Shown: piece by piece, positions 1-63,722 of the stretch
Position numbering within the stretch: position 1 is the first letter of the stretch
Layout of the letters: each line of letters starts with the position of its first letter
Origin: Lineus longissimus
Lineage: Eukaryota > Nemertea > Pilidiophora > Heteronemertea > Lineidae
Direction of reading: 5' to 3'
Assembly (NCBI RefSeq): GCF_910592395.1
Contig: NC_088309.1
Coordinates: forward strand, 17,116,599-17,180,598
DNA length: 64,000 bases
Notes under the pieces: model-generated
The model's input: only the letters and a program-made list of their open reading frames with translations
Databases searched by the model: none
What the model was told of the DNA's origin: nothing
Translations under genes and position numbers: made by a program

Positions 1-3000
1 CCTTGCGTACGATTTTCTTGACACATTTTCGGATGCGATGCACACTAGTTTTCTTGATTACAACTCGCCGAATGACTTTGACTTGCTTGATGATTTTGGT
101 GCATACTATGATCCTTCTCCGAAGTGGTTTCCTCTTTCCTTTCTTTACTTTTCTTAGAACCTTGATCAGCGTTTTCTTTCTGCGAATATATTTCTTAATC
201 ATTTTCTTCAAGATTTTCGCCACTTTCTTTTTAGCCTTCTTCACTTTCTTTGGTCTTGAAACTCTCTTGGGTTTTTTCTTATTTCTCCTTGGTCGCTTGT
301 TTGGACGACGAGTGACACGTCTGATTTTGCTGACAATTTTCTTTAATACTTTTCTCACCCTACGGAGTATCTTACACTTGGTTTTCAGCTTTGGTTTCTT
401 TTGCTTTGGCGTTCTCTTGACTTTCCTCTTTAGCTTCTTGTACTGCTTACATGCCTTGCGTACGATTTTCTTGACACATTTTCGGATGCGATGCACACTA
501 GTTTTCTTGATTACAACTCGCCGAATGACTTTGACTTGCTTGATGATTTTGGTGCATACTTTGATCCTTCTCCGAAGTGGTTTCCTCTTTCCTTTTTTTA
601 CTTTTCTTAGAACCTTGATCAGCGTTTTCTTTCTGCGAATATATTTCTTAATCATTTTCTTCAAGATTTTCGCCACTTTCTTTTTAGCCTTCTTCACTTT
701 CTTTGGTCTTGAAACTCTCTTGGGTTTTTTCTTGTTTCTCCTTGGTCGCTTGTTTGGACGACGAGTGACACGTCTGATATTGCTGACAATTTTCTTTAAT
801 ACTTTTCTCACCCTACGGAGTATCTTACACTTGGTTTTCAGCTTTGGTTTCTTTTGCTTTGGCGTTCTCTTGACTTTCCTCTTTAGCTTCTTGTACTGCT
901 TACGTGCCTTGCGTACGATTTTCTTGACACATTTTCGGATGCGATGCACACTAGTTTTCTTGATTACAACTTGCCGAATGACTTTGACTTGCTTGATGAT
1001 TTTGGTGCATACTTTGATCCTTCGCCGAAGTGGTTTTCTCTTTCCTTTCTTTACTTTTCTTAGAACCTTGATCAGCGTTTTCTTTCTGCGAATATATTTC
1101 TTAATCATTTTCTTCAAGATTTTCGCCACTTTCTTTTTAGCCTTCTTCACTTTCTTTGGTCTTGAAACTCTCTTGGGTTTTTTCTTATTTCTCCTTGGTC
1201 GCTTGTTTGGACGACGAGTGACACGTCTGATTTTGCTGACAATTTTCTTTACTACTTTTCTCACCCTACGGATTATCTTACACTTGGTTTTCAGCTTTGG
1301 CCTCTTTCTCTCCGGCAGTTTCTTGATTTTCCTCTTAAGCCTCTTGTACTTCCTTGATGTCTTCCTTACAATGTGTTGTGTATAGTTCATAATTCTATGC
1401 ACTCTAGTACTCTTGATTATTGTATGCTCTATAATGACAACTTGCCAGATGACAGTGGTGAATATTTTGATCTTTTTACGTAGAATTTTCCTCTGCGTTT
1501 TTTTGGCCTTTTTTAGAGTCTTGATCAATTTTTTCTTTCTCTGAACATACTTCTTAATAATTCTCTTCAGGCAATTTACCACTTTTCGTTTAACCTTCTT
1601 CACTTTCTTTGGTCTTGAAACTCTCTTGGGTTTTTTCTTATTTCTCCTTGGTCGCTTGTTTGGACGACGAGTGACACGTCTGATTTTGCTGACAATTTTC
1701 TTTAATACTTTTCTCACCCTACGGAGTATCTTACACTTGGTTTTCAGCTTTGGTTTCTTTTGCTTTGGCGTTCTCTTGACTTTCCTCTTTAGCTTCTTGT
1801 ACTGCTTACGTGCCTTGCGTACGACTTTCTTGACACATTTTCGGATGCGATGCACACTAGTTTTCTTGATTACAAGTCGCCGAATGACTTTGACTTGCTT
1901 GATGATTTTTGTGCATACTTTGATCCTTCTCCGAAGTGGTTTCCTCTTTCCTTTTTTTACTTTTCTTAGAACCTTGATCAGCGTTTTCTTTCTGCGAATA
2001 TATTTCTTAATCATTTTCTTCAAGATTTTCGCCACTTTCTTTTTAGCCTTCTTCACTTTCTTTGGTCTTGAAACTCTCTTGGGTTTTTTCTTATTTCTCC
2101 TTGGTCGCTTGTTTGGACGACGAGTGACACGTCTGATTTTGCTGACAATTTTCTTTAATACTTTTCTCACCCTACGGAGTATCTTACACTTGGTTTTCAG
2201 CTTTGGTTTCTTTTGCTTTGGCGTTCTCTTGACTTTCCTCTTTAGCTTCTTGTACTGCTTACGTGCCTTGCGTACGATTTTCTTGACACATTTTCGGATG
2301 CGATGCACACTAGTTTTCTTGATTACAACTCGCCGAATGACTTTGACTTGCTTGATGATTTTGGTGCATACTTTGATCCTTCTCCGAAGTGGTTTCCTCT
2401 TTCCTTTTTTTATTTTTCTTAGAACCTTGATCAGCGTTTTCTTTCTGCGAATATATTTCTTAATCATTTTCTTCAAGATTTTCGCCACTTTCTTTTTAGC
2501 CTTCTTCACTTTCTTTGGTCTTGAAACTCTCTTGGGTTTTTTCTTATTTCTCCTTGGTCGCTTGTTTGGACGACGAGTGACACGTCTGATTTTGCTGACA
2601 ATTTTCTTTAATACTTTTCTCACCCTACGGAGTATCTTACACTTGGTTTTCAGCTTTGGTTTCTTTTGCTTTGGCGTTCTCTTGACTTTCCTCTTTAGCT
2701 TCTTGTACTGCTTACGTGCCTTGCGTACGATTTTCTTGACACATTTTCGGATGCGATGCACACTAGTTTTCTTGATTACAACTCGCCGAATGACTTTGAC
2801 TTGCTTGATGATTTTGGTGCATACTTTGATCCTTCTCCGAAGTGGTTTCCTCTTTCCTTTTTTTACTTTTCTTAGAACCTTGATCAGCGTTTTCTTTCTG
2901 CGAATATATTTCTTAATCATTTTCTTCAAGATTTTCGCCACTTTCTTTTTAGCCTTCTTCACTTTCTTTGGTCTTGAAACTCTCTTGGGTTTTTTCTTAT

Positions 3001-9000: not shown

Positions 9001-12000
9001 GTTTCTTTTGCTTTGGCGTTCTCTTGACTTTCCTCTTTAGCTTCTTGTACTGCTTACGTGCCTTGCGTACGATTTTCTTGACACATTTTCGGATGCGATG
9101 CACACTAGTTTTCTTGATTACAACTCGCCGAATGACTTTGACTTGCTTGATGATTTTGGTGCATACTTTGATCCTTCTCCGAAGTGGTTTCCTCTTTCCT
9201 TTTTTTACTTTTCTTAGAACCTTGATCAGCGTTTTCTTTCTGCGAATATATTTCTTAATCATTTTCTTCAAGATTTTCGCCACTTTCTTTTTAGCCTTCT
9301 TCACTTTCTTTGGTCTTGAAACTCTCTTGGGTTTTTTCTTATTTCTCCTTGGTCGCTTGTTTGGACGACGAGTGACACGTCTGATATTGCTGACAATTTT
9401 CTTTAATACTTTTCTCACCCTACGGAGTATCTTACACTTGGTTTTCAGCTTTGGTTTCTTTTGCTTTGGCGTTCTCTTGACTTTCCTCTTTAGCTTCTTG
9501 TACTGCTTACGTGCCTTGCGTACGATTTTCTTGACACATTTTCGGATGCGATGCACACTAGTTTTCTTGATTACAACTTGCCGAATGACTTTGACTTGCT
9601 TGATGATTTTGGTGCATACTTTGATCCTTCTCCGAAGTGGTTTTCTCTTTCCTTTTTTTACTTTTCTTAGAACCTTGATCAGCGTTTTCTTTCTGCGAAT
9701 ATATTTCTTAATCATTTTCTTCAAGATTTTCGCCACTTTCTTTTTAGCCTTCTTCACTTTCTTTGGTCTTGAAACTCTCTTGGGTTTTTTCTTATTTCTC
9801 CTTGGTCGCTTGTTTGGACGACGAGTGACACGTCTTATTTTGCTGACAATTTCCTTTAATACTTTTCTCACCCTACGGAATATCCTACACTTGGTTTTCA
9901 GCTTTGGTTTCTTTTTCTTTGGCGTTCTCTTGACTTTCCTCTTTAGCTTCTTGTACTGCTTACGTGCCTTGCGTACGATTTTCTTGACACATTTTCGGAT
10001 GCGATGCACACTAGTTTTCTTGATTACAACTCGCCGAATGACTTTGACTTGCTTGATGATTTTGGTGCATACTTTGATCCTTCTCCGAAGTGGTTTCCTC
10101 TTTCCTTTTTTTACTTTTCTTAGAACCTTGATCAGCGTTTTCTTTCTGCGAATATATTTCTTAATCATTTTCTTCAAGATTTTCGCCACTTTCTTTTTAG
10201 CCTTCTTCACTTTCTTTGGTCTTGAAACTCTCTTGGGTTTTTTCTTATTTCTCCTTGGTCGCTTGTTTGGACGACGAGTGACACGTCTGATATTGCTGAC
10301 AATTTTCTTTAATACTTTTCTCACCCTACGGAGTATCTTACACTTGGTTTTCAGCTTTGGTTTCTGTTGCTTTGGCGTTCTCTTGACTTTCCTCTTTAGC
10401 TTCTTGTACTGCTTACGTGCCTTGCGTACGATTTTCTTGACACATTTTCGGATGCGATGCACACTAGTTTTCTTGATTACAACTCGCCGAATGACTTTGA
10501 CTTGCTTGATGATTTTGGTGCATACTATGATCCTTCTTCGAAGTGGTTTCCTCTTTCCTTTCTTTACTTTTCTTAGAACCTTGATCAGCGTTTTCTTTCT
10601 GCGAATATATTTCTTAATCATTTTCTTCAAGATTTTCGCCACTTTCTTTCTAGCCTTCTTCACTTTCTTTGGTCTTGAAACTCTCTTGGGTTTTTTCTTA
10701 TTTCTCCTTGGTCGCTTGTTTGGACGACGAGTGACACGTCTGATTTTGCTGACAATTTTCTTTAATACTTTTCTCACCCTACGGAGTATCTTACACTTGG
10801 TTTTCAGCTTTGGTTTCTTTTGCTTTGGCGTTCTCTTGACTCTCCTCTTTAGCTTCTTGTACTGCTTACGTGCCTTGCGTACGATTTTCTTGACACATTT
10901 TCGGATGCGATGCACACTAGTTTTCTTGATTACAACTCGCCGAATGACTTTGACTTGCTTGATGATTTTGGTGCATACTTTGATCCTTTTCCGAAGTGGT
11001 TTTCTCTTTCCTTTTTTTACTTTTCTTAGAACCTTGATCAGCGTTTTCTTTCTGCGAATATATTTCTTAATCATTTTCTTCAAGATTTTCGCCACTTTCT
11101 TTTTAGCCTTCTTCACTTTCTTTGGTCTTGAAACTCTCTTGGGTTTTTTCTTATTTCTCCTTGGTCGCTTGTTTGGACGACGAGTGACACGTCTGATATT
11201 GCTGACAATTTTCTTTAATACTTTTCTCACCCTACGGAGTATCTTACACTTGGTTTTCAGCTTTGGTTTCTTTTGCTTTGGCGTTCTCTTGACTTTCCTC
11301 TTTAGCTTCTTGTACTGCTTACGTGCCTTGCGTACGATTTTCTTGACACATTTTCGGATGCGATGCACACTAGTTTTCTTGATTACAACTTGCCGAATGA
11401 CTTTGACTTGCTTGATGATTTTGGTGCATACTTTGATCCTTCTCCGAAGTGGTTTTCTCTTTCCTTTCTTTACTTTTCTTAGAACCTTGATCAGCGTTTT
11501 CTTTCTGCGAATATATTTCTTAATCATTTTCTTCAAGATTTTCGCCACTTTCTTTTTAGCCTTCTTCACTTTCTTTGGTCTTGAAACTCTCTTGGGTTTT
11601 TTCTTATTTCTCCTTGGTCGCTTGTTTGGACGACGAGTGACACGTCTGATTTTGCTGACAATTTTCTTTACTACTTTTCTCACCCTACGGATTATCCTAC
11701 ACTTGGTTTTCAGCTTTGGCCTCTTTCTCTCCGGCAGTTTCTTGATTTTCCTCTTTAGCCTCTTGTACTTCCTTGATGTCTTCCTTACAATGTGTTGTGT
11801 ATAGTTCATAATTCTATGCACTCTAGTACTCTTGATTATTGTATGCTCTATAATGGCAACTTGCCAGATGACAGTGGTGAATATTTTGATCTTTTTACGT
11901 AGAATTTTCCTCTGCGTTTTTTTGGCCTTTTTTAGAGTCTTGATCAATTTTTTCTTTCTCTGAACATACTTCTTAATAATTCTCTTCAGGCAATTTACCA

Positions 12001-15000: not shown

Positions 15001-18000
15001 GAATGACTTTGACTTGCTTGATGATTTTGGTGCATACTTTGATCCTTCTCCGAAGTGGTTTCCTCTTTCCTTTTTTTACTTTTCTTAGAACCTTGATCAG
15101 CGTTTTCTTTCTGCGAATATATTTCTTAATCATTTTCTTCAAGATTTTCGCCACTTTCTTTTTAGCCTTCTTCACTTTCTTTGGTCTTGAAACTCTCTTG
15201 GGTTTTTTCTTATTTCTCCTTGGTCGCTTGTTTGGACGACGAGTGACACGTCTGATATTGCTGACAATTTTCTTTAATACTTTTCTCACCCTACGGAGTA
15301 TCTTACACTTGGTTTTCAGCTTTGGTTTCTTTTGCTTTGGCGTTCTCTTGACTTTCCTCTTTAGCTTCTTGTACTGCTTACGTGCCTTGCGTACGATTTT
15401 CTTGACACATTTTCGGATGCGATGCACACTAGTTTTCTTGATTACAACTTGCCGAATGACTTTGACTTGCTTGATGATTTTGGTGCATACTTTGATCCTT
15501 CTCCGAAGTGGTTTTCTCTTTCCTTTCTTTACTTTTCTTAGAACCTTGATCAGCGTTTTCTTTCTGCGAATATATTTCTTAATCATTTTCTTCAAGATTT
15601 TCGCCACTTTCTTTTTAGCCTTCTTCACTTTCTTTGGTCTTGAAACTCTCTTGGGTTTTTTCTTATTTCTCCTTGGTCGCTTGTTTGGACGACGAGTGAC
15701 ACGTCTGATTTTGCTGACAATTTTCTTTACTACTTTTCTCACCCTACGGATTATCCTACACTTGGTTTTCAGCTTTGGCCTCTTTCTCTCTGGCAGTTTC
15801 TTGATTTTCCTCTTTAGCCTCTTGTACTTCCTTGATGTCTTCCTTACAATGTGTTGTGTATAGTTCATAATTCTATGCACTCTAGTACTCTTGATTATTG
15901 TATGCTCTATAATGACAACTTGCCAGATGACAGTGGTGAATATTTTGATCTTTTTACGTAGAATTTTCCTCTGCGTTTTTTTGGCTTTTTTTAGAGTCTT
16001 GATCAATTTTTTCTTTCTCTGAACATACTTCTTAATAATTCTCTTCAGGCAATTTACCACTTTTCGTTTAACCTTCTTCACTTTCTTTGGTCTTGAAGCT
16101 CTCTTGGGTTTTTTCTTATTTCTCCTTGGTCGCTTGTTTGGACGACGAGTGACACGTCTGATTTTGCTGACAATTTTCTTTAATACTTTTCTCACCCTAC
16201 GGAGTATTTTACACTTGGTTTTCAGCTTTGGTTTCTTTTTCTTTGGCGTTCTCTTGACTTTCCTCTTAAGCTTCTTGTACTGCTTACGTGCCTTGCGTAC
16301 GATTTTCTTGACACATTTTCGGATGCGATGCACACTAGTTTTCTTGATTACAACTCGCCGAATGACTTTGACTTGCTTGATGATTTTGGTGCATACTTTG
16401 ATCTTTCTCCGAAGTGGTTTTCTCTTTCCTTTCTTTACTTTTCTTAGAACCTTGATCAGCGTTTTCTTTCTGCGAATATATTTCTTAATCATTTTCTTCA
16501 AGATTTTCGCCACTTTCTTTTTAGCCTTCTTCACTTTCTTTGGTCTTGAAACTCTCTTGGGTTTTTTCTTATTTCTCCTTGGTCGCTTGTTTGGACGACG
16601 AGTGACACGTCTGATTTTGCTGACAATTTTCTTTAATACTTTTCTCACCCTACGGAGTATCTTACACTTGGTTTTCAGCTTTGGTTTCTTTTGCTTTGGC
16701 GTTCTCTTGACTTTCCTCTTTAGCTTCTTGTACTGCTTACGTGCCTTGCGTACGACTTTCTTGACACATTTTCGGATGCGATGCACACTAGTTTTCTTGA
16801 TTACAACTCGCCAAATGACTTTGACTTGCTTGATGATTTTGGTGCATACTTTGATCCTTCTCCGAAGTGGTTTCCTCTTTCCTTTCTTTACTTTTCTTAG
16901 AACCTTGATTAGCGTTTTCTTTCTGTGAATATATTTCTTAATCATTTTCTTCAAGATTTTCGCCACTTTCTTTTTAGCCTTCTTCACTTTCTTTGGTCTT
17001 GAAACTCTCTTGGGTTTTTTCTTATTTCTCCTTGGTCGCTTGTTTGGACGACGAGTGACACGTCTGATTTTGCTGACAATTTTCTTTAATGCTTTTCTCA
17101 CCCTACGGAATATCCTACACTTGGTTTTCAGCTTTGGTTTCTTTTGCTTTGGCGTTCTCTTGATTTTCCTCTTAAGCTTCTTGTACTTCTTACTTGCCTT
17201 GCGTACGATTTTCTTGACACATTTTCGGATGCGATGCACACTAGTTTTCTTGATTACAACTCGCCGAATGACTTTGACTTGCTTGATGATTTTGGTGCAT
17301 ACTATGATCCTTCTCCGAAGTGGTTTCCTCTTTCCTTTCTTTACTTTTCTTAGAACCTTGATCAGCGTTTTTTTTCTGCGAATATATTTCTTAATCATTT
17401 TCTTCAAGATTTTCGCCACTTTCTTTTTAGCCTTCTTCACTTTCTTTGGTCTTGAAACTCTCTTGGGTTTTTTCTTATTTCTCCTTGGTCGCTTGTTTGG
17501 ACGACGAGTGACACGTCTGATTTTGCTGACAATTTTCTTTACTACTTTTCTCACCCTACGGAGTATCCTACACTTGGTTTTCAGCTTTGGCCTCTTTCTC
17601 TCTGGCAGTTTCTTGATTTTCCTCTTTAGCGTCTTGTACTTCCTTGATGTCTTCCTTACAATTTGTTGTGTATAGTTCATAATTCTTTGCACTCTAGTAC
17701 TCTTGATTATGGTATGCTCTATAATGACAATTTGCCAGATGACAGTGGTGAATATTTTGATCTTTTTACGTAGATTTTTCCTCTGCAATTTTTTGGCCTT
17801 TTTTAGAGTCTTGATCAATTTGTTCTTTCTCTGAACATACTTCTTGACAATTCTCTTCAGGCAATTTACCACTTTTCGTTTAACCTTCTTTACCTTCTTT
17901 GGTCTTGAAACCCTCTCGGTTTTTTTCTTATTTCTCCTTGGTCGTTTGTTTGGACGACGAGTGACTCGTCTGATTTTGTTGGCAATTTTCTTTACTACCT

Positions 18001-18370: not shown

Positions 18371-19113
18371 TGATTTTTTCTTATATCTCCCTTTAACCTT
18401 TCGCCTTGTTATGACCTTTATCAATTTCCGGATAATTTTGATTTTATCCTTTATCTCAGTTTTTATCTTCTTCTGTTTCCCTTTATTTTTCACTTTTGGC
18501 TGCTTGAGTCTTTTCTTTAATGCATTTATTGATTGATTTAGATGTTTCAAAACAGCTTTTTCTGTCTTTTTCTTCTGTGGTAGCCTCAATGTTTTATGAA
18601 TGACCTTTTGAAATCTTGTTAAGTGATGGATTCTTGTTTGAATTTGTTTGGCAGTTTTCTTCTTTTTAACTTTTAATTTTTTTTGACGTTTAATTATCTT
18701 AGCCAGGTGAGACTGCAGTTTTTTTGTTACTTTCTTTATTTTCCTTACCCTCTTCCCCCTTTTAATACAATTGCGGACGTTCCGTCGAATCCTCCTCAGG
18801 CGTATCAGAGATTTATACACAAAGAATAACTGGCGTCTTTTGAGCCGAAGCAATATGACTTTCCGTTTAGAGACTCTTTTTGGACGAAGGGAGTTAATCA
18901 GTCGGATCAGTCTGTAGACTCTCTTTATGACATATCCGGTTCTCCTGACCACTTTCCATGCATATCGCTGTGCTTCAGGTCTACTTGGTGCATGGCCTTT
19001 GCAGCACAAGTCACGAATTCGTTTCAGTTTTTTAACTGGTTTCTTTGCACGTCTGAGAATTATTCTAAACCTTCTCATCAAACGCCTAAGCCTTCGGAGG
19101 AAAAATCTCGCTC
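1..19113 (-). CDS. Exon 12: giant exon encoding about 41 basic repeats
   Basis: Acceptor ctttcactttcag precedes 19113; the first residues are GARFFLRRLRRLMRRFRIIL. About 240 non-repeated but equally basic residues lead into the repeats near 18.37 kb. The frame is open to base 1. Reading upstream from the acceptor, the first in-frame stop is at 19241-19243 and the first in-frame Met is only at 19076-19078, so exon 1 is needed for a secreted product. In the unit I translated (151 residues) I count 51 Lys, 27 Arg, 41 Val/Ile/Leu, 3 Cys and no Asp or Glu. The stretch KKVAKILKKMIKKYIRR is strongly amphipathic as a helix. Variation between units is mostly synonymous or Lys/Arg exchange. Confidence 0.85.
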
Positions 19114-22100: not shown

Positions 22101-25100
22101 AGGACGATCTCATAAATTTTTCTAAGTGCAATATTACTGGGGGGCAATTTTCGGGCGGCAATTGACCGGGGGAATCATCCGGGGGGGGGGAATTGTCATG
22201 ATACCATGGAAAACAGCCTATGGCATTAAAATCATATGTGTATTGAGGAAGTGTCTGATTACAAACATGATTGCGCAAGGGTGCAAAGGGGGTCATCTTG
22301 CTGAATATGTGTAAACCAGGGTCTTGCAATAAAGAGTCTGGCAACTAGGGAACGTATGGTTTCAGGATCAAAGCCTCCGCCCGTTTCGAAAGACGCACGC
22401 TGGGAGCTCTCTTGGGTCGTGAGTTGACCCAAGCTGTAATATCGCACAACTAGAACTTGAACGAAATTAATGCTTCGATCAGCGGAACATAGCCGTTAAA
22501 CGCTCCGTTCTAAACGGTAAACGCAAGCTTTCGAATTCACTGATTTCTATAAACTATTTAAAAGGACAACATTAATAGGAAAACCGACTTGTTTCGTATT
22601 TTACTTTTCGACAGTTCCGAGAAGTAGTGATGATGGAATTGGTTTATGAATAATTTTCGAAATGCGTTTTTTTTCTCCACATTTTTATATATTTTTTGTG
22701 GTTAGCCGTTAAATATGTTTATATAAGGGTATAGTATGGTTCCATTTGTTGTTATCTTATGGGCTATTCATATAAGTAATCAATTTTGACCGACTACATT
22801 GTATACAACGAGTTTTTGCAGCAGGTTCAATTTTGCGTTTGTGATAAATAATAAAGAAAATGTCCTTAATGTATCGACTTTTGTTGTCAAACGTTGTTGT
22901 CAAACCTTTTTATATTCGATACACACGACCATTATATGAAGAGTATTGTCGGTAGGGCTGGCGTTTTGATCTTCATGTGCCAGTGTCCCAAGAAAGAGAT
23001 TTCTATGGAAAACATAGGACACGAAGTGAAAGGAATTATTTGCCGTTCAATTTCATTAAGGAAACTGAAAAAGAAGCATACATTTCAGTGCAAAAAATAG
23101 CGACTGCACAAGGATGAAAAACTCCCGAATTGAATGTGAATAATCTACAGATAAGTGTACATTGGCAAAATGTCCTACCTGGACTGGGTCGTCGTACTCT
23201 TGGTGGTCGCTTTGGTCGTCGTTGACGTGGCCGTCGTTTTGGTTTCGGCAGACCCTTCCTAGTTATGAAGAACTTCCTGAATTTCGGCTCTGGAAGCAAG
23301 TTGCGAAAAAATATCATGCTTATGCAAAATATGTTGTTTAATGTTCATTTCATGTTGAAAAATAACACTTGATTATTTGCATATTGCACACTTTGAACAT
23401 TCTGCGTGAGGTACCCACGTGGCCTCCCCAAAAATGTTCCAGTAGGATTTCCACAATGCAGAGGTTTTCCTTTAAAGTACGTTTCTAGCGAGAGAAGAAA
23501 CTCTGATTCTGTGGGTTTGCGTGTACGACCTCCCCACCCCCCCCCCCCCCCACCCCACCCGTAGATTATCGCACTGCTATAATGTCTTACAGAACTGGTT
23601 TCTTTCAAAAAATGTTGCTTTTCTCTTTAGTAAGCCTCAGAACGATGCTTTCATAAAATGAATAAAACCGGTGTAACATCTGTGGTTGTTCCCCATGTGT
23701 CAGTGTTTCCAAACAATAGGCAGCTAGAGAGACCACGACTTTTCAATAGGGGGGATACACAGAAAAACTTGTCAATCTATTTTTGAGCGTTCCCAAACAA
23801 TGAGGGGAAACACTCAAAAACAGAAACACTCAAAAACATTACACCGGTCTTAGAAATATTGATTCACTTGATAGTTAGCCATTAACAACTACAGTAGAGC
23901 CTTTGGTATTTAACTAAATACAATAGAAAAAGGTTATGGTATATGTGAACATCAACTTACTTTTTTTGCAAGGCACTGAAATGAAAGCAAGATAATTCAT
24001 CAATAGATATATACATTGCAAAAGTGCACAGATATCATCTATGTCCGGTGCCATGTTTTTTGCTCTTTCTGGGATCATGACTTGATTTCGAACATATACG
24101 ACGTAGATTTGTTCAAATGTGCTAAAATCAAGTATAGATGAGATATTAGATTCTTTAATTTACTTGCTAAAACTAATAATCACACTGAAGAAGTGTAAAG
24201 TGCGGCCGAATGGAAGGGTATATTGGACATTTTTACTCTTTTGTCCTTTGCTTTTTTTATAAAAGTTATCACTAAATTAACTTTTAAGAGCAAATATTCA
24301 TCCTTTCTTTGAAGACAGTGACTTTGAAATGGGGCGGGCAGAGAAAAACATGTCAATATGAGTTTCAGCGTTCCCAAACAATGGGGAGAAACACACAGAA
24401 ACGGAAAACATCAATAAACGTACTCTGCAAAAAGATAACTCTTTGTGAGCTACTTCTATCGCTCTAGTCAACAGAAGAGCGAAACTTGGATTAGATAATC
24501 GTGATCCCCCTCCGTGATTGTGAAATAAGTGCATTGGTTATCATAGAACACTTTCAGGTGTGCTGCAACTAAAAGCTTGTCGTAGAATTTAAAGAAAGTT
24601 GCAGACAGTTATTAGTAAGTATAATCTTTCGTGTTTTTTCTCTCTTTCAGCATATTCAGTAGAGCGATTCTAGATGTAAACTTGCTCTTCAAAACGAATT
24701 TCACTTTTTCTTTTTCTTTTTTTAGACAGTATTAAAAGGGGTATCAAACTGTCGCAAACAATGAAGTATAAGGGAAAAAATCAAAAATGTAAACACTCAA
24801 AAACGTTGCACAGGCGTAAAAGTTTGAAATGTGCCAGGGTAGACTGTCCGCCGAACATAGAATTCTATAATATCTTTAATCTCTGAGCCACGGCCATGGC
24901 ATCTATAGAACCATATACCATAATCCGTTAGAATCTAATAGGGCCAGACACATTTTCCCGGATGACAGTTTCGATTACTACTCCGACTGACATCAGGCAG
25001 GAGTTGAGAACTTTCAGGTCGCGTTTATATTGTCCAACCACATCAAATATACTGAATCATTCATCGCAATATTAGCAACCAGACTCACTTTATAGAGAAG

Positions 25101-28100
25101 TCGTACATTTTTCTCCGGATGGCTAATTCCCCATAGCCAACTCATGTACGAGCTGTTATCCTCATTAAACTGAAAGAAACGTTGAGAAGGTAAAAGAAAT
25201 ATCAATAGCAACTTACATTTTTTGCAGACGAACTTATTGCACTTGTGCTTTACAGGCACTGCGGGTGGCGTCTTGACCTCCTGGACGAACACCACCTGAG
25301 GCTTACCTGAAAAAGAAAAAGAAATCAACTATAGACTTCGAGAAAAGTATGATATAAAGGGGGCTGAAGGCAGGAGCTCCGAACCCGTGTTGATCGCCAG
25401 GAGTGTAATCATGAACAAGTCTGGATATGGGTCTGGTTTAACTTTCGGGGGAAAATATCGATATATGCGATTAATGCGTACAATATGTACACAAGAATAC
25501 ATAACTGATAGAAGAAAGAAAATAGGTGAAACAGCAGTTCCCTAACACGAAGTCCGAGAAGATGTTAATTCCTATCAAGAGACTAAAAACAAGCATGTGA
25601 AGAAGCATGCCAGAAGGGACTAATATACGAATGAGCAGACCAGACGACATGAAAAGAATGTTGTCTGCAAAATCGCCAGAGAACCTTGTCTTATCTCCTG
25701 GACGAAAAGCTTCCCAGCTTGGCGTCCGAAGTTGCAGTATATAAGTTGGATATCAAATAAAATTTAGATATTTACATACAATGAATATTCGAACTTAAGA
25801 TATAAAATGGACATGGTGATGTAAACCTGGATTTCAAAATGAATATATTCAAACATTGGATCATACTTGAACTTGGATGTCAAACAATTAAATTCGAACT
25901 TGGCAATCATGATAGAAATTCGAACTTGGCTATTAAATTGATATTCGAACTTGGAAATCAAGCGGATAATCAAACTTGGCTATTTAATGGATATTCGAAC
26001 TTGGATATCAAATGGATATTCGAACCTTGGTATTGATCATGAATGGATGTTTGAACTTTGATATCAAATGGATATTCCAACTAGGATATCAAATATATTC
26101 GAACATTTGACATTCAATTTCATGCACCTGTCTGTATTGATCCTTAAGTAAGGCATTGCTGTTACCTTATTCTTTTACAAAGACACTGATATATTGCTAT
26201 CAATCTAAAAGTGTTTCCCTACCTTTTGGTGGTGAAGGTTTCGGACGCTGTACCCGTCTCCGCTTGGCGATCAACACTTTGCGAAACCTCCTTCTGTTGC
26301 TGCTGGGCAACATCTGGCGAGTACTCCCTGAAAATTAAGGTCTCACGATGAGCAGATGCACAATTCATAGTTCTTCAAAACATTAGTGTCGTTCCAAAAT
26401 ATGTTGTCTGGTTCGGTAGACGACACTCGCAATGATCCAAAACGATGACGCTGACGGTACAGGGAAGTACGGTGGTACAGTGGAAGTGCGTCCAACTTGT
26501 GCGCGGAAGGACGTGGGTTAGAGGCTTGGGCAATGCCACTCAGTACTATCGACTGGCCTGAAATGGTAGCACAGTGTGTGCCTCCTCGATTGTAACGCAG
26601 TGTGTCATCTGCCCCCTTGGTTTCTACAGAGTTGTTTGGTTTCGTTGGAAAACAGTGGTAGTTGGTCTACCTTAAAAACCCCAACAGAACTCTCTTTCCC
26701 AATGTCGAATCAACGCCGAATATAATTCCCTTCGGTGGACGCTCGCCGATCTCTGCCGATGTACGATAACATATCACTTCTGTCTTAAATTCAACCCCTG
26801 GAAACCACCAATTTGCCCTATGGCTCCTTCCTATATAGTCACTTAAGGACCGAGTTCTTATAGCTCTTATATGCGTATTATACTTACGTCTTGCATTTCC
26901 TTCTCTACCTGAAGAAGAAATAAAGACCCAAGTAAAAAAACATCTGAAACGGCGACGATACAGCGATCGTCTTTTGAAACAACTGTCATTCAGACAAGAT
27001 GTATGACATTCATCAGACCACCTCTGCAAATCAGACCATACAACTCAGATTGGTTGATGTTTATTACGTCAGGTTATTCAAAATAAACTTTCCAAAGACC
27101 TATGCTCACCTCCCTCACAGACATGCTGTTGATTTCGATTTTAGCCAGGTTTTAGCCAGATTTTAGCCTGGTTCCAAAACCAGGAATCGAACCGGACTGA
27201 AATATTCAGTATGTACCAAATTCAAGAAAATAGCTCCAGTAGTTACAAAACATTCAACCATCGGTCATGTTACGCTATTTGACCTCTGTGACCGTGAAAA
27301 GTAGGTCGAATCAAAAACTCGTGTGCCATGTCACGTATCGTCATTACATGTACCTACGATAGTAATTTGGTGATGACCGAGCCCTTAGTTAGGGATAAAC
27401 GGGTATAGCACTTTTAGTGTTTTCGGTTTTGGCCACATTCCTGGTGGCAATATTAGGAATCGAACCGGACTGAATTTTGTTCTCCCAGGTGTCATTTCAT
27501 AGCAGAACATATGTACACGTACCAAGTTTCAGGTTATGTGATAAAATTTATCAATGATCAAGCCGTTTGGCATTTCTATTTTTGCCACCTTGTGGCCAAA
27601 CAAGGAATCGAACCGGACCGAAATTTAGGGTGCAAGGTTTCATAACATAGGGCTACATATAGACCGAGTAGCTCCAGTAGTTACGAAACGTGCCTCCGTC
27701 GGTAATTTACGCTATTTGACCTCGGCAACCTTGAAAAGTAGGTCAAATCGAAAACCCTTGTGATATGTCGGAGTGGCGCAGTGGCAACATCAGCGCATGT
27801 CACCTCTGAGGTCCCGGGTTCGATTTCCGGTCGGTCCTGGTGTAGAAGTTTAAGTGTCCCCTGGTAAAAATGTCCCCCGGATACTAAGTCCCAGGAAAAA
27901 ATGTCCTAGGTTATTTTATTCTGGGGAAAAATGTCCGGGTGGGCAATTTTACCTAGGGGAGATTGTCCAGGGTCTAGGAAAATATGTCCGTTATGGACTT
28001 CTTTTCCCAGTAATATCTGTCCATGTGATCGAAATCCCTTGCTAGTTGTTATCAATTTTTTAGATGATTTACCTACTCTTTTGAGTCTTATTTTAACAAA

Positions 28101-31100
28101 ACTCACAACAATAGTGAATTTACAACGCAGACAGTTGATTACGATGGGTTAGGGTTAGGGTTAGGGTTAGGGTTAGGGTTAGGGTTAGGGTTAGGGTTAG
28201 GGTTAGGGTTAGGGTTAACCCTAACCCATAATAATTCTCTGCGTTATCCAGATAAAATAATCCGGGCATATTACATAACAGGAAAGAAAAAGACAAGCTA
28301 CTTAAAATACAAAAAAGAGCATACCCTCACCGAGATTCGAACTCCATAGTTTCAGTTTACAAGCACCGAATGTTCACCACTACACTACCGAGCTTTAGAT
28401 CTTTAGGCCTTTATTTTTAGACCACGTAACTGCGAACCGTAGCCGGACAATTTCACTGCTGACAGTTTTAACTGTCATAGGTGTAAAAGAAAAAAGTGTT
28501 CGGCCGTTTAAAATGTCCGGATCGTCTGTATATAAGACAGGAAGAAATGTCCCATAGGACATTTTTCTCTCTGGTAAAAACGGTCCGAAGGACCGTTTTC
28601 CCCAGGGACAGGTGTCCTCCGGACACCTGTCCCTGGCGGACACATTTTACTTTTACACCGGTACACTCATGTGATAGAGATTGCGACTGTCTTCGACAGC
28701 GTAGGTTTCCTCCGGATCTCCGATTTCCTCCTGCTTACATTTCAATTGCCCAATATTTTTTATAGAACTAATAATGTCCTTGTTGACGCTCAGCTCTCAA
28801 CTCAATAAATATTATATGTCATATAACGTCAATCGTCATTACATGTACCTTTGATAAATATTTGGTTATGATCGAGATATAGCACATTTTGTGTTTTTGG
28901 TTTTAGCCACCTGATCGCAAGATCAGGAATCGAACCGGTCCGAAAGCTGGCTCCCAGGTGTCATTACATAAGGAAACATATGTACTGAGCTTCAAGTTGA
29001 TAGGTCCAGCAGTTACAAAACGTGCCTTGCTAACTGACGACGACGACGGACGCTGTGCCATAAGATATCCCAAAATGTGGCTAATTTTGAGTCGATGTAG
29101 ACACATAATGCGTGGTATAAAGGACAGCGCGATAGCTAAAGTGACTTTGACGTTAGTGAATAAAATTACATTTATATAGTAGGTCAACACTATCAATATA
29201 TATAAGGAATCTCAAACGGGTAAATGTATGTTCGGACGTGGACATAAAATGGATCGAACTAGGATCGAAATAGGTAATTTGAACTTGGATCAACTGGATA
29301 CACGATCTCGGATATCTGCAACTGGATATTCTAACATTCGACACTACATTCAATTTCATGCAGAAAAGGTTCATTCTGTATTGAACATGGGTACTATGAA
29401 TGGATGTTCGAACCTGGGTATCAAATGGATATTCGAAATCGGGTATCAAATATATTCGAACATTTGTCATTCAATTTCATGCAGAACGTACTTTCCGTAT
29501 TAATCCTCTGCAAGGCTTTGCTGCTACCTTATTTTTTACAAAGACACTTAATGCTATCAATCTAAAAATGTTTCCCTACCTTTTGGTGGTGAAGGTTTCG
29601 GACGCTGTACCCGTCTCCGCTTGGTGAACAACACTTTGCGAAACCTCCTTCTGTTGCTGCTGAGCAACACCGGGCGAGCACTCCCTGAAAATCAAGGTCT
29701 CACGATGAGCAGATGCACAATTTATAGTTCTTCAAAACATTAGGGTCGTTTCAAAATATTTTTTCTGGTTCGGCAGGCGACACTCGCAATTGTCCACAAC
29801 AGAAGAGGAAAGTACGGTGGCACAGGGCATGGAAGAGAGTCCAACTAGTGCTCTGAGGACTTGGGTTCGAGGCTTGGCCACTCACGACTTTCAACTTGCC
29901 TGAAATAGTAGCGTAGTGTGTGCCTCCTCGATTGTAACGCAGTGTGCCATCTGCCCCCTCGGTTCCTACACAGTTGTTTGATTTCGTTGGAAAACAGTGG
30001 TAGTTGGTCGACCTTAAAAACCCCATCGGAACTTAACTCCCTATTCCACCATCGGATCAACGCCGAATATGATATAATTCCCTTCGCCGGCTTCGGTCGA
30101 CACTCGCCGATGTACGATTACGTATCACTTCTGTCTTGAACTGGGATTGGTCGCCTGGAGACCATCTATTGGCCCTAGTACCCGGCCCCTTCCTATAGTC
30201 ACTTTAAGGACCGAGTTCAAATCTGTACTCTTATATGCATATTATACTTACGTCTTGCATTTCCTTTTCCACCTGAAGATGAAATAAAGACCCAAGTCAA
30301 AAACCATCTGAAACGGCGACGACACAGGGATCGTCTTTTGAAACAACGGTCATTCAGACAAGATCGCAAATCAGACCGTACAACTCAGATTCGTCGATGT
30401 TTATTATATCAGAAAAGGCCAGGGCCATTATGCTCATCTCCCTTACACATGTTATTGTCTTTTCGAATTTAGCCACCTGGTGGCCAACCAGGAATCGGAC
30501 CGGACCGAAATTTAGTCTACAAGGTTTCATAACATAGGACTCCATATGTACCAAATTCAAGAAAATTGCTCCAGTAGTTACAAAACGTTTAACCATCGGT
30601 CAATTTACGCTATTTGACCTATGTGACCTTGAAAATTTGGTCAAATCGAAAACTCGTGATCGTGTATTGTCAAACGATAAAAAAATGGTGATGATCGAGC
30701 CCTTAGTTAGGGATATATAGCACTTCTTGTGTTTTCGGTTTTAGCCCTCTGGTGGCAATATCAGAAATCGAACCGGACTGAATTTTGTTCTCCCAGGTGT
30801 CATTTCATAGGAGAACATGCATGTACGTACCAATTTTCAAGTGATATGACAGGTATGCACCAAGTTTCAAGTGATATATTAGTATATTAAAAATTTACAG
30901 AGATCAAGCCGTTTTAGTGTTTTCGATTTGGGCCACCTGGTGGCCAAACAGGGAATCGAATTGGACCGAAATTTAGTCTGCAAGGTTTCATAACATAGGG
31001 TTACATACATACCGAGTTTCGAGGCAATAGCTACGAAACATGCCACCATCGGCTAATTTTCGCTATTTGACGTCTGTGACCTTGAGAAGTATGTTAACTC

Positions 31101-34100
31101 AAAAACCCGTGTGATATGTCATGTATCGTCATTAAATTTACCTTTGATAAAAATTTGGTGATGATCGAGCCTTCAGTTAGGGAGATATAGCACCTTTCGG
31201 TTTTAGCCACCTGATGGCAAAATCAGGAATCGAACCGGACCGAAATGTGGTCTCCCAGGTGCCATTCCATAGGGAAACATACCAAAGCTTCAAGGCGATA
31301 GCTCCAGCAGTTACAAAACGTGCCTTGCTAACTGACGACGACGACGGACGCTGCGCCATGAGATAGAGAGGTGAACAAAAATTACCAAAATTTGACTTAT
31401 TTTGAGACGAGGAAGACACACATATACGTGGTATAAATAACGGCACAATATTGACTTTGACACAGTGAAAAAAAATTACATTTCTATAGTAGGTCAAAAT
31501 TATCAATATATATAGGGAATCTCAAACGGGTGAATGGATAATTATTCGAAATCTGATATCAAATGGACAGTCGAACATCGTAGAAATCGCTCTATCTGTT
31601 TTGAACCGCAGTAAGGCCCTTCTGCTTCCTTATTTTTACAAAGACACTTATTGATATCAATCGAAAAAGAGTTTCCCTACCTTTTGGTGGTGAAGGTTTC
31701 GGACGCTGTACTCGTCTCTGCTTGGTGAAAAACACATTCCTTAACCTCCTTCTGTTGCTGCTGAACAACACCGGGCGCCGTGCACTCCCTGTAAATAAGG
31801 TGGATTCGTGATCGGAAGGACGTGGGTTCGGGGCTCAGTCAGTGCCTCTTGGTAGTTTCAAGTGACTGGCCTCACATGGCCGAATGCAGTGCAGAATGTG
31901 CCTCCTAGTTACGTTGGAAAAACGGTGGTAGTTTGTCGGCCTTAAGAACCCCTCCGGAATTCTCTTTCCCAACGTCGGGCCAACGCTCAATACAATTCCC
32001 GTTGGTCGACTCTCACCGACATCTGCCGGTGTACCACCAACGTCTGCCGGTGTACAACCAACGTATCACTTCTGTCTGGAAGAGGGCGATTTGAGACCAC
32101 CGATTGGCCCTCTGGCTCCTGTATATAGTCACTTTAAGGACTGAGCTCAAATCTGTGCTGTTATACGCTTATTTTTACTTACGTTTTGCATTTTCTACTC
32201 TAGCTGAAGAAGAAAAAGACCTAAGTCAAAAACCAGTTGAAACAGCGATGACGAGGGTACGTCTACAAAACCAACTGTAGTAAATATTTCAGACAATATA
32301 CTGTACATGTATAAACATCCTCTGCGATCAGACCATACAACTCAGATTGGTCGATGTTTATAATATTATCAGGTTATCAGAAAGAAAAAAAAACTTTCTT
32401 AATCTCAAAGATAACAAAATTTGGCTCATTTTGAGATGAGGTCGACACACACATACCTGGTATAAATTTCAGCACGATAGCTAATGTATATTGACTTTGT
32501 CACAGTGAATAAAATTATTATTGTGGTACATTACATGTAGGCCAAAAATATTCAATATTAGAAATAGCCATTTATTTTCGAATATGAATACATGTACAGA
32601 CATGTAGCATGCAGAAAAATAAAGTTAATTATGTAACTTAAACCTAAAAGGATAACAGCCCCTGCCCATTGATTGTTTTTGTCCCATAAAAAACTGATAT
32701 TAAAGGAACGTTTTTTGCGTGATGATGTCATGTCATGGACAACCAATCAGCTATCAGCTCGTAATATTTGTCTTAAAATAGTACATTTGTGACTGATGAT
32801 ACATTATACAACAATAAGCTTCAACAGTGTCAGTTGTGCTTTTTGGTTTTTTGCAAGACCCCTGCCTGCTGCGCCTCTTTTTCAATAGGGATTTTTCGCA
32901 AATTCCCCAAAACGCCAACGTGAACGCCCATCTCATTGTTTGACCTCCTGATAACGAAGTCGAATGGAACAGGTGTTCACGTGGACGGTCAGGGGACTTT
33001 GCGAAAACTCCCTATTGATTCGACGACGTTAACGTAACTACAACGTGATGCATCTTTCTCGCTTCTAAAGTAACAAGTGAAAAATTTGGGAAATTTGCCT
33101 TACCTGTATTTACTCTCACATATCTGGCTTGTCCTGAAAAAAGAACAGAAAATATGTGTTGCTATATAAACTAAATCCAGAAAGAATAACATTATACGTA
33201 TTATAAAAATCTATCACCCTACTTGATATGTACGGTGGCCCCTGGTCATGTTCAAACAAAATAAATCATGTACATGTATGTCCATTCCCGGCCACCGTAG
33301 ATCTGTTACTACATGTTTTGTAAAACTTCATGCATCATTTTTGTTCTATACCAAAATTAAAAAATAAATCTACATGGGCAATTTCTAAATGGTCAGTATA
33401 TTTTTGCGAATTACTTTTGTTCTATACTAAAAATAAAAAATAAATCTACATGGACAATTTCTAAATGGTCAGTATATTTTTGCGACTAGATGTCAAGACA
33501 CGAATTGCCGCATTAGGCAACGCACCTGTAATAATGTTTTAAGCCGTTTTCCCTTTAAAATGGTACTATCTACATGCTCAGATGTTTTCCCGAAACGTAG
33601 GCCTACCAAGGGAGGAACGCTTTCACAGCCAAATAGACTTATCCTAGCCTGTCAAACCATGACATTTTCGTTGTACGTTAAATATGCACGATAATTTCAG
33701 AGTTCGGGGGTCATGAAGTTAGAGGGGTCATTTTTGTCGGCTTTTAAAAACACAATTGCGCACTAATCTTCGCAAACTTAGACACTCTTATGTTGTGCTC
33801 AATATTAGTGAATTTTAAATAGATACAATTGATAAACGCCTGAGAGGCACTATCAAATATATGTTACATTTATGGCTGGGGCGAGTGGACAAAATTCAGA
33901 ATGATTCCACGGCATAAATAGGTATTGTGGTGCACCATAAATCAACCAATCAAAACATCGGATCTCGTGAATTATGCCACGGCATAAATAGGATAATTCG
34001 ATCAATCAGAAAGTGGCAATCGTTTTATTTATGGTGCGGTATAAATCGCAATTCCGTCCACAATTCCTATTTATGCCGTGGCATAATTCACGAGATCTGA

Positions 34101-35049
34101 TGTATTGATTGATTGATTTATGGTGCACCACAATTCCGATTTACTTCCGTCCTCCATAAATGACACTTCCGTCCACAATTTCTATTTATGCCGCGGCATA
34201 ATTCACGAGACCCGAGGTTTTGATTGGTCGATTCATAGTGCACCACAATTCCGATTTATGCCGTGGCATAATTCTGAATTCTGTCCACTCGCGCCAGTCA
34301 TATACATTGTCACTCTCTTCCGCATATCGACCGTCGTTTCATGCGCGAATCGATTAAGGACAGTTCGCGAGAAGATGATTTTCCCACTCCGACTCTGAAT
34401 CAGTTCTGAGACCGAATTAGTCATCTCGAGACACCTTCAATTAAACTATAAACCGAATTTGGCATCTCGAGACACCTTCAGTTGAACTATATAAATTTGA
34501 AGAACGATTATTCACACTGGATAGTCCCATACAAGTAAAATCGGCCAATCAAACAGTCAACTTAGAAGTGTGTAAAAGCCGCAAAAAATGAAGTCTTTCA
34601 AGTCCGGAATGCAACTTTTTCACTTCTGCCTTATGACAGAGTCCTTCTCTGGCTGTACAGTATAAAGCGATAAAGTTTCGTTCTTCATTTTTGTATTAGG
34701 AGTCTAAATGATTATGTTTATTTAGAATTCTTACTATTTTTTTGGCCGAATAGGCCCATTTGATAAGAAGCAGGATCGAGACAATGGACATTACATAGCA
34801 TGAGAGGCGGCAGGCTTGTTGATTTCTTGACTACGAATAAATAGTTTGTAAATAATTAAGGTGAATTTGGAAAGGAAATAACGTGTTTTGGCCAACCAAT
34901 GTATATTCACAAGGAGGAGAAATTAACAAATCGGCTTAAAATGTTGATAAAAAGGGGTTGAATTATAAAATTGACTTACCATCCTCTGCGACCATCAGCA
35001 CTACAATAAGTAGTGTGAGGAGCACAGTAAACACCGTGAATCGAGACAT
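1..35049 (-). CDS. Giant secreted Lys/Arg-rich tandem-repeat protein, 12 exons, 3' end beyond window
   Basis: I do not recognise this gene. The model is a spliced chain in transcript order: 35049-34980, 33133-33104, 32203-32183, 31788-31681, 30272-30252, 29684-29580, 26908-26888, 26327-26223, 25306-25217, 23975-23961, 23289-23179, 19113-<1. Every junction has an AG acceptor and a GT donor (mostly gtaagt, gtaggg or gtaagg). Every junction is phase 1, so the frame stays open throughout. The first 11 exons give 232 residues; the last gives about 6,370 more inside the window with no stop. The product begins with a signal peptide, then basic modules ending in the motif RPKPSPPK, a short Cys-bearing module, and about 41 repeats of 151 residues. 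It should enter the secretory pathway. Function is unknown; a polycationic adhesive, matrix or mucus component, or a precursor of cationic peptides, is inference. Transcript data would confirm the micro-exons. Confidence 0.85.
19114..19975. other. Intron 11, proximal part
   Basis: This is intron sequence beside the giant exon. It is AT-rich with scattered gtttgactgaaa-like motifs and no coding frame I can support. Confidence 0.6.
19976..20505. mobile_element. About 530-bp non-autonomous TIR element
   Basis: The left end ccttaagctagatttacatg and the right end (the same, inverted) form terminal inverted repeats of about 28 bp with one mismatch. There is no transposase frame. It lies in intron 11, 9 bp from the next element. 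Confidence 0.75.
20515..21356. mobile_element. About 840-bp foldback element rich in ttagttttag motifs
   Basis: The ends gggtgatttcaaagt and actttgaaatcaccc are inverted and flanked by ATT on both sides (20512-20514 and 21357-21359), a plausible 3-bp target duplication as in Harbinger-type elements. The interior is made of diverged copies of ttggttttagtgt on both strands. Confidence 0.7.
21724..22198. mobile_element. Foldback element with poly-C left arm and poly-G right arm
   Basis: The left arm holds ggggcaattccccc and long C runs. The right arm holds the inverted form, including attgaccgggggaatcatcc and a G run. The homopolymers make exact ends uncertain. Confidence 0.5.
22200..23178. other. 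Intron 11, distal part, no recognised element
   Basis: AT-rich intron sequence up to the donor of exon 11. I see no gene, array or terminal-repeat element here. Confidence 0.5.
23179..23289 (-). CDS. Exon 11 (111 nt), Arg/Pro/Lys-rich module
   Basis: The exon reads K-PKFRKFFITRKGLPKPKRR then PRQRRPKRPPRVRRPSP before donor gtagga. An alternative acceptor about 10 nt further in reaches a stop at once. The chosen acceptor (cttccag) keeps phase 1 and the basic composition. Confidence 0.75.
23527..23562. repeat. C-rich homopolymer tract in intron 10
   Basis: Near-pure run of C with two A interruptions; a likely sequencing or assembly weak point. Confidence 0.8.
23740..24420. repeat. Dispersed motif around ttcccaaacaatg-ggaaacac
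   Basis: The block gcgttcccaaacaatg followed by gaaacactcaaaaac or a close variant occurs near 23790 and 24370, more weakly near 24750, and again near 35490. It looks like a diverged interspersed family; ends cannot be set. Exon 10 lies among these copies. Confidence 0.45.
23961..23975 (-). CDS. Exon 10, 15-nt micro-exon
   Basis: Acceptor catttcag is followed by 15 nt and donor gtaagt. The exon reads LPCKK once the split codons are joined, giving a third Cys close to the two in exon 9. Without it the joint between exons 9 and 11 would create a stop codon, which supports its inclusion. Confidence 0.65.
25217..25306 (-). CDS. Exon 9 (90 nt), Val/Pro then Cys-Lys module
   Basis: The exon reads GKPQVVFVQEVKTPPAVPV and then KHKCNKFVCKK. 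It holds two cysteines and one of the few acidic residues of the protein. The acceptor follows a long pyrimidine tract and the donor is gtaagt. Confidence 0.75.
25745..26115. repeat. Degenerate minisatellite, atcaaatggatattcgaactt-like
   Basis: Units of roughly 25-30 bp built on ggatatcaaatggatattcg repeat about a dozen times with much divergence. Related copies lie at about 29220-29480 and 31530-31580, in each case in the intron just downstream of a 105/108-nt exon, so the array is part of the triplicated cassette. Confidence 0.7.
26223..26327 (-). CDS. Exon 8 (105 nt), basic module copy 3
   Basis: The exon reads R-STRQMLPSSNRRRFRKVLI then AKRRRVQRPKPSPPK. Its frame, length and splice sites match exon 6. 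The run of arginines and the Pro-rich tail are the conserved core of this module. Confidence 0.8.
26330..26887. other. Cassette intron between exons 7 and 8, SINE-like segment
   Basis: The stretch near 26460-26580 (acggtggtacagtgg, then ggacgtgggttagaggcttg) resembles a tRNA-derived head with A- and B-box-like blocks. Clear homologues occur near 29815-29930 and 31800-31900 in the matching introns of the other two cassettes. Confidence 0.5.
26888..26908 (-). CDS. Exon 7, 21-nt micro-exon, cassette copy 3
   Basis: The micro-exon reads GREGNAR plus a split Arg codon, between acceptor ttcttcag and donor gtaagt. Flanking intron sequence is also shared with copy 2, so the whole genomic cassette was duplicated, not only the exon. 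Confidence 0.75.
27100..27766. repeat. Dispersed repeat with aatcgaaccggac blocks
   Basis: Successive blocks contain ggaatcgaaccggac, a Ca. 40-bp tccagtagttacaaaacgtg segment and tttacgctatttgacctctg. The same order recurs at about 28880-29090 and 30460-31350. The arrangement looks like a mid-repetitive family, locally amplified with the exon cassette. Confidence 0.6.
27767..27838 (+). mobile_element. tRNA-derived SINE head, interrupted copy
   Basis: An A box tggcgcagtgg (27774-27784) and a B box ggttcgatttc (27817-27827, one change from consensus) lie 33 bp apart, as in a pol III tRNA-type promoter. The continuation of this SINE resumes at 28660, so the element between is a later insertion. 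A related copy lies at the right edge of the window. Confidence 0.7.
27839..28659. mobile_element. 821-bp TIR element carrying telomere-type repeats
   Basis: The ends ggtgtagaagtttaagtgtc and its imperfect inverse (ggacacattttacttttacacc region, 28638-28659) form terminal inverted repeats. Many aaaatgtcc motifs and small palindromes lie inside. It sits within a SINE whose two halves flank it. No transposase frame is seen; target duplication is unclear. Confidence 0.7.
28146..28227. repeat. Interstitial TTAGGG tract with head-to-head CCCTAA junction
   Basis: Eleven perfect TTAGGG units (28149-28214) are followed directly by ttaaccctaaccc (28215-28227), so G-rich and C-rich telomere strands meet head to head. 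The C-rich arm is very short. Confidence 0.95.
28660..28758 (+). mobile_element. 3' half of the interrupted SINE
   Basis: The sequence ggtacactcatgtgatagag through cttacatttcaattgcccaa matches the copy at 63893-64000 in order, showing where the 821-bp element landed. Confidence 0.65.
29200..29480. repeat. Degenerate minisatellite, second cassette copy
   Basis: Units such as gtatcaaatggatattcgaa recur with divergence, parallel to the array at 25745-26115. Confidence 0.6.
29580..29684 (-). CDS. Exon 6 (105 nt), basic module copy 2
   Basis: The exon reads R-SARPVLLSSNRRRFRKVLF then TKRRRVQRPKPSPPK, with the same acceptor and gtaggg donor as exons 4 and 8. Differences from exon 8 are few and mostly conservative, so the duplication looks recent. 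Confidence 0.8.
30252..30272 (-). CDS. Exon 5, 21-nt micro-exon, cassette copy 2
   Basis: The micro-exon is flanked by ttcatcttcag and gtaagt and reads GKGNAR, with the split codon giving a second Arg at the next junction. It is a close copy of exon 7 and a more distant copy of exon 3. Confidence 0.75.
31681..31788 (-). CDS. Exon 4 (108 nt), basic module copy 1
   Basis: The exon reads R-SARRPVLFSSNRRRLRNVF and ends in VQRPKPSPPK before donor gtaggg. It is homologous to exons 6 and 8 but one codon longer (an extra Arg near the start). Only this reading frame stays open and basic, and it is the frame dictated by the phase-1 chain. Confidence 0.8.
32183..32203 (-). CDS. Exon 3, 21-nt micro-exon, cassette copy 1
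   Basis: This micro-exon sits between acceptor ttcttcag and donor gtaagt and reads ARVENAK, with the split codon completing Arg from the next exon. The junction therefore carries Lys-Arg followed by Ser-Ala-Arg. It is the first of three related 21-nt exons, each placed before a roughly 105-nt exon. Confidence 0.75.
32886..33018. mobile_element. Short hairpin MITE, copy 1
   Basis: The left end atagggatttttcgcaaatt and the right end ctttgcgaaaactccctatt are inverted copies around an inner inverted pair aacgtgaacgcccatc / ggtgttcacgtggac. A second copy is at 36960-37093. Confidence 0.65.
33104..33133 (-). CDS. Exon 2 (30 nt) of the Lys/Arg-rich gene
   Basis: A strong pyrimidine tract and AG acceptor precede 30 nt that end at donor gtaagg. 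With the single base carried from exon 1 it reads GQARYVRVNT and again leaves one base, keeping phase 1. It likely forms the start of the mature protein after signal cleavage. Confidence 0.75.
33339..33486. repeat. 77-bp tandem duplication
   Basis: The segment ttttgttctataccaaaatt through cagtatatttttgcga occurs twice in a row with few changes. It lies in intron 1. Confidence 0.85.
33873..34306. mobile_element. About 430-bp foldback element, gccacggcataaata family
   Basis: The left end gcgagtggacaaaattcaga and the inverted right end (gaattctgtccactcgcg) pair. The internal module tatttatgccgtggcataat recurs four or more times in both orientations. There is no coding frame. It lies in intron 1. 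Confidence 0.75.
34980..35049 (-). CDS. Exon 1 of the Lys/Arg-rich gene: signal peptide
   Basis: The exon starts ATG at 35047-35049 and reads MSRFTVFTVLLTLLIVVLMV followed by AED, then one base of a Gly codon before donor gtaagt. The layout is a textbook signal peptide: short basic N-region, about 15 hydrophobic residues, then a polar Ala-Glu-Asp stretch where cleavage is expected. The start is supported by the TATA-like box and initiator just upstream, which leave a 5' UTR of only about 24 nt. Confidence 0.85.
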
Positions 35050-35070
35050 GATGTCTGATTCACTCGGCGG

Positions 35071-41480: not shown

Positions 41481-41486
41481 TCATTG

Positions 41487-45065: not shown

Positions 45066-63722
<18,657 letters not shown>

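Follow-up and report, generated by a model that had tools for sequence, protein, structure and literature searches.

A probable gene for a secreted giant polycation of predicted helical modules in Lineus longissimus

The locus described here raises the question of whether a minus-strand reading frame that stays open through a long tandem array in Lineus longissimus belongs to a genuine gene, and what kind of protein such a gene would make. In our study, the window is the whole stretch of 64,000 nucleotides that was analyzed, and in its six-frame translation the longest open stretch, on the minus strand between 19240 and base 2, counts 6,413 codons. The array has a period of 453 bp, repeated about 40.6 times; because this period is divisible by three and T is scarce on the sense strand, an accidental open frame has to be excluded. 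Our results indicate that the locus is probably a real gene for a secreted giant polycation, on the basis of a spliced phase-1 model, a hydrophobic N-terminus and a homogenized giant exon, all of them read from the DNA sequence.

Gene model and surroundings of the locus

We rebuilt the list of exons directly from the DNA. Twelve minus-strand exons, from 35049 to the left edge, join without a stop into 6,603 codons through 11 introns, all of them GT-AG and all in phase 1, and every inner exon has a length divisible by three (Table 1). The initial annotation had proposed twelve exons in a single phase, a giant exon open for more than 19 kb and running off the left edge, and a product of more than 6,600 residues; each of these proposals held in the rebuilt chain, and the anatomy of the locus and the controls given below both give good support to a spliced gene on this strand whose giant polycationic product starts with a signal-peptide-like segment. 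It is important to note that the gene leaves the window at the left edge and that the 6,603 residues are its visible part only.

Table 1. Positions of the exons, putative promoter elements and repeat units of the locus.
Feature	Position	Strand	Remarks
TATA-like box TTTAAAAG	35097..35104	-	31 bases before the A of TCAGTC; recognized after the fact
Initiator-like TCAGTC	35070..35075	-	implies a 24-nt 5' leader before the ATG
Exon 1	34980..35049	-	start codon and hydrophobic signal-peptide-like segment MSRFTVFTVLLTLLIVVLMVAEDG
Exon 2, 30 nt	33104..33133	-	GT-AG, phase 1
Exon 3, 21 nt, with copies in exons 5 and 7	32183..32203	-	identity 15/21 with exon 5 and 17/21 with exon 7
Exon 4, 108 nt, with copies in exons 6 and 8	31681..31788	-	rebuilt chain and exon alignment
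Exon 5, 21 nt	30252..30272	-	19/21 identical to exon 7
Exon 6, 105 nt	29580..29684	-	rebuilt chain and exon alignment
Exon 7, 21 nt	26888..26908	-	rebuilt chain and exon alignment
Exon 8, 105 nt	26223..26327	-	rebuilt chain and exon alignment
Exon 9, 90 nt	25217..25306	-	rebuilt chain
Exon 10, 15 nt	23961..23975	-	rebuilt chain; weakest single exon, least certain because it is very short
Exon 11, 111 nt, Pro/Arg-rich	23179..23289	-	rebuilt chain
Exon 12, giant, 19,113 nt to edge	1..19113	-	runs off left edge
Single-copy start of exon 12, 247 aa, 40% K/R	18371..19111	-	predicted all-helical
40 complete units	263..18364	-	38 of 151 aa, 2 of 148 aa
Type-B unit no. 2	17459..17911	-	unit classification
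Other type-B units (nos. 6, 15, 38)	15647-16099, 11588-12040, 1169-1621	-	
Partial 41st unit	1-262	-	runs off left edge

Two lines of evidence bear on the start of the gene, both obtained with patterns written after exon 1 and its surroundings had been seen. First, the core-promoter-like pair: the motifs TWTAAAR and TCAKTY at a spacing of 29-33 bases match once per strand in the 64 kb, with a pattern that was composed post hoc. Second, the start codon: the ATG of exon 1 is the only one on either strand of the window that passes a filter, likewise composed with this exon in view, that demands an open frame, strong hydropathy and a GTAAGT donor close by. The hydrophobic N-terminus resembles a signal peptide, and it could be a membrane anchor instead.

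Exons 3-8 consist of three copies of one two-exon block (3-4, 5-6 and 7-8). Six exon pairs were aligned, and Fisher's test was applied to two of them, using about 200 bases of flanking intron on each side of the exon. Exons 4 and 6 are identical in 96 of 108 columns, against 194 of 387 in the flanking stretches (P = 2e-14), and exons 6 and 8 in 99 of 105, against 299 of 393 (P = 8e-6); exons 4 and 8 point in the same direction (90/108 versus 185/388 in the flanks). The identities of the 21-nt exons 3, 5 and 7 (15, 17 and 19 of 21) come from lengths too small to weigh. Exons 6 and 8 differ at six sites, each of them a first or second codon position, and six residues change as a result, so this pair does not show conservation of the usual, synonymous kind. 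The triplication includes the introns and extends over 26039-32264, with inner repeats of about 250 bp besides, and the intron between exons 6 and 7 contains the telomere-type hexamer GGGTTA repeated twelve times without error (28146-28217).

Other features of the window were recorded as well. A plus-strand open frame at 37604-41245 contains a reverse transcriptase domain (RVT_1, E 1.4e-33) and is probably a non-LTR retroelement; its 5' part runs across a tandem repeat of 78 bp. Together with the intron-rich structure of the gene, this element points to a probable animal source. Two arrays whose 78-bp units are nearly alike, one at the start of the reverse transcriptase frame (37663-39053) and one just past it (41481-43348), contain long open frames in both directions. 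Among the 7 of the 90 listed other open frames that were scanned against Pfam, only the retroelement gave a match. A U2 spliceosomal RNA match on the minus strand (58444-58640; score 50.6 versus a gathering score of 46) is possibly a pseudogene. Minisatellites with 18-bp and 28-bp units occupy 58750-59079 and 59838-60515, respectively, and two copies of an 18-bp unit almost identical to that of the first are found at 35685-35721.

Coding status of the repeat array

The 40 complete units fall into two types, A and B, whose consensus sequences differ in 98 of 453 bases and 51 of 151 residues. These base differences are concentrated in codons 1-107 (95/321, against 3/132 thereafter), and the near-identity beyond this point makes the last part of the unit look recently exchanged or converted. 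Identity between type-A units is about 98.7% for neighbors (29 pairs) and 97.9% at a distance of 30 units (6 pairs), which fits an array homogenized by exchange. Unit length varies in one way only: two of the 40 complete units lack three codons in frame, possibly through a single event.

Dinucleotide shuffles were used as controls on the open frame. Any of the three sense frames was open in 16 of 20,000 shuffles of the type-A consensus, and the K/R content of this consensus, 0.523, lies 8 sd above the shuffle mean (0.305, sd 0.026, maximum 0.430). The 247 single-copy codons that precede the array were open in 0 of 20,000 shuffles. Since shuffles are rarely open and their K/R content reaches at most 43%, as opposed to 52%, composition alone does not explain the array frame and its basic content. 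The A consensus also leaves one antisense frame open, yet this frame is stopped in 9 of 38 units, whereas the sense frame is broken in none.

The variation among units was also analyzed. In the 34 full-length type-A units, 78 distinct variants were counted, 27 synonymous, 51 non-synonymous and none creating a stop (2.6 stops expected, P 0.057); the synonymous share among these units is not above chance (P 0.37). Between the A and B consensus, there are 0 stops versus 3.8 expected (P 0.0185), 51 amino-acid changes versus 60.4 (P 0.009) and 15 basic residues lost versus 24.6 (P 0.0014), and the share of changes that keep the residue class is 0.49 versus 0.35 (P 0.006), while the loss of hydrophobic residues (5 versus 8.1, P 0.078) is not significant; these tests are several views of one comparison and are not independent. 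As a proof of coding, dN/dS between units (100 sampled A-B pairs, 150 sampled A-A pairs and all B-B pairs) was rejected: its in-frame values are 0.42-0.58, but frame +2 and an antisense frame, not always the same one, gave comparably low values in most comparisons. Taken from the sequence controls, an array frame that is the accident of a satellite is unlikely.

Composition, predicted structure and relatives of the product

The visible product contains 3,287 Lys and Arg among 6,603 residues (49.8%; Lys 32%, Arg 18%) and 25 Asp and Glu, the polybasic and acid-poor composition expected of a sandcastle-worm-type cement protein. The computed charge of this visible part is about +3,255 at pH 7.4 and its mass 807 kDa, and the net charge (K/R minus D/E) is about +79 per type-A consensus unit and about +66 per type-B unit. 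Among the 40 complete units, 32 have three Cys, four have two and four have four, and the N-glycosylation motif NYT is confined to the four type-B units.

The unit was modeled with AlphaFold2 on the 40-unit alignment, which yields helices at residues 4-38, 41-70, 74-101 and 104-135 (mean pLDDT 83.8, pTM 0.70) and a low-confidence tail at 136-151, predicted as a disordered basic linker of 16 residues. The alignment carries little diversity (effective number 1.3), and for this reason the four-helix model is a prediction only. Amphipathic helical periodicity is strong in three segments of the unit that were picked by eye (0, 7 and 5 of 1,000 shuffles reach the observed value) and gives no signal over the unit as a whole (660 of 1,000). 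The single-copy stretch of 247 residues is amphipathic-periodic as well (8 of 1,000), and six helices of 23 to 64 residues are predicted in it by single-sequence AlphaFold2 (pLDDT 76.9, pTM 0.51). Homology between this stretch and the unit was considered and rejected: the alignment score is 139 versus 143 for the reversed sequence, 28 of 500 pattern-keeping shuffles reach 139, a profile comparison gives a 0.6% probability over 13 columns, and the BLAST hits between the two came with composition correction and filter switched off.

In the fold comparison against the PDB, no specific fold stands out for the unit model. The matches mostly cover one half of it (1-72 or 73-137) and therefore do not corroborate that all four helices pack together, and several weak ones are designed helical bundles. 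The PDB sequence search listed six weak matches (best E 0.071), all to designed helical proteins; de novo designed bundles are among the closest known structures, through weak matches in both comparisons.

No relative of the product reached the threshold in the searches made, in collections that may cover animals poorly. In Pfam, the best E values were 0.082 for the unit consensus and 0.094 for the first 482 residues, with all listed scores below the curated cut-offs. It should also be considered that two of the sequence searches scored only about 8,000 candidates sharing most words, a weakness for a Lys-rich query. Within the window, tblastn gave no match right of 35100 that would represent a paralogue. 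No title or abstract start describing such a protein was found in the literature covered, a scope that excludes subscription journals and preprints and does not imply unpublished status. Two shell matrix proteins of the brachiopod Laqueus rubellus are comparatively rich in basic residues (PMC4536745); the available part of that report describes nothing of the size or module of the product, from which these proteins are set apart by description.

The initial annotation had characterized the product as about half Lys and Arg in its repeats with almost no acidic residues, and as belonging to no described family. The composition stands, at 52% K/R in the type-A consensus, and the second claim agrees with the searches made, within their animal coverage. 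The role put forward there, in an adhesive, tube, shell or mucus or as a reservoir of peptides, is a putative one. The giant polycation also stands; its plainness does not, since units predicted as four amphipathic helices and a disordered linker make the product look like a chain of supercharged helical modules.

Proposed role of the product and its rivals

Our best reading, to which we assign a probability of roughly 0.45, is that the product is a secreted supercharged repeat protein that would condense with polyanions in a structural secretion, as the sequence, the predicted model and an analogy with known glues suggest. A structural polyelectrolyte is the most economical reading because it accommodates a secretory-type start, an extreme charge, no acidic shield and predicted modular helices. 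The four helices of each unit would pack together, possibly in two hairpins, so that hydrophobic faces are buried and Lys and Arg are exposed, and the chain would enter the secretory pathway. In granules, its charge would be neutralized by sulfated, phosphorylated or acidic polyanions; after release, a dense polyelectrolyte network might form in a glue, tube, mucus or mineral matrix, where the two to four Cys of each unit could provide extra cross-links.

The sandcastle-worm proteins Pc2 and Pc5 are small and of another composition than the product, which exceeds 800 kDa and is predicted to be helical; the two are likened by description, not by sequence. According to the available text on the sandcastle-worm glue, secretion granules contain sulfated polyanions that are balanced by the polybasic Pc2 and Pc5 before coacervation (PMC11277488), and for the product this would be a proposed way of working.

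The main rival, a close one that we nevertheless hold to be doubtful, is a polyprotein in which a convertase would cut at an R-X-R-R site in every linker, possibly in the Golgi, and free dozens of soluble cationic helical effectors of about 151 residues, for example antimicrobial or polyanion-neutralizing ones. A furin-type site is present at residues 141-144 of all 40 complete units (R-P-R-R in 39, R-T-R-R in 1), inside the non-helical low-confidence tail of the model, further R-X-[KR]-R sites number only 4 across these units, and the helices are cationic and amphipathic. A precedent is Baramicin A of flies, whose precursor, in the accessible part of its description, is cut at RXRR sites and contains tandem repeats (PMC8423362). 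Tandem antimicrobial polyproteins such as Baramicin A and apidaecin share tandem units and RXRR-type sites with the product, but as far as that text describes them they release short peptides (23 residues for the IM10-like ones), whereas the product has more than 40 units of 151 residues that are predicted to fold. Furthermore, the number of furin sites is ordinary for the composition of the unit (no excess, with 1 in the tested unit versus a mean of 2.3 over 500 shuffles), an acidic pro-segment to shield the charge is absent, and the linker belongs to the part that is nearly the same in A and B, so that its conservation may be homogenization. Because linker conservation can be explained in this way and the sites are not in excess, the sequence alone does not decide between a material and a cut precursor.

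We regard as improbable that the product is an intracellular polyanion binder, serving in chromatin, sperm, RNA or polyphosphate packing, with its hydrophobic start misassigned or its true start elsewhere. A content of one half Lys and Arg resembles that of basic nuclear proteins, but the regular predicted helices are unlike protamines. In addition, the coincidence of start codon, hydrophobic stretch and donor at exon 1 alone in the window and the core-promoter-like pair 24 nt upstream of the ATG argue against this reading, both with the post hoc character noted above. Cylicins, which the available portion of their report describes as sperm cytoskeletal proteins, also derive positive charge from lysine-rich repeats (PMC10684152), a likeness of description only. 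Finally, a non-coding 453-bp satellite with one frame open by luck and upstream exons due to chance would accommodate the T-poor sense strand, the uninformative dN/dS and the open antisense frame of the A consensus, but it is very improbable given the rarity of open shuffles for unit and single-copy codons, the K/R excess, the in-frame length change, the stops confined to the antisense frame and the charge kept between A and B.

Returning to the structural polyelectrolyte, secreted polycations are already known, and those described so far are mostly small or disordered; a single chain of more than 40 supercharged, apparently folded helical modules is a variant without a match in the searches made. 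Genes of this kind are easily missed through repeat and low-complexity masking. As a tentative proposal, with the odds against it, the product may belong to a class of extracellular biopolymer not described before, in which natively folded and supercharged modules of helices follow one another in a chain of nearly a megadalton. Polyanions would neutralize this chain when it is packed and secreted, and the resulting animal material would consist of folded rather than disordered polycations. If true, a cell would need some means of producing, folding and storing a giant protein that is half Lys and Arg, has a net charge above +3,000 and is nonetheless composed of helical modules, and how it does so would be a question in its own right. 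Such a protein would also offer a natural template for supercharged protein materials.
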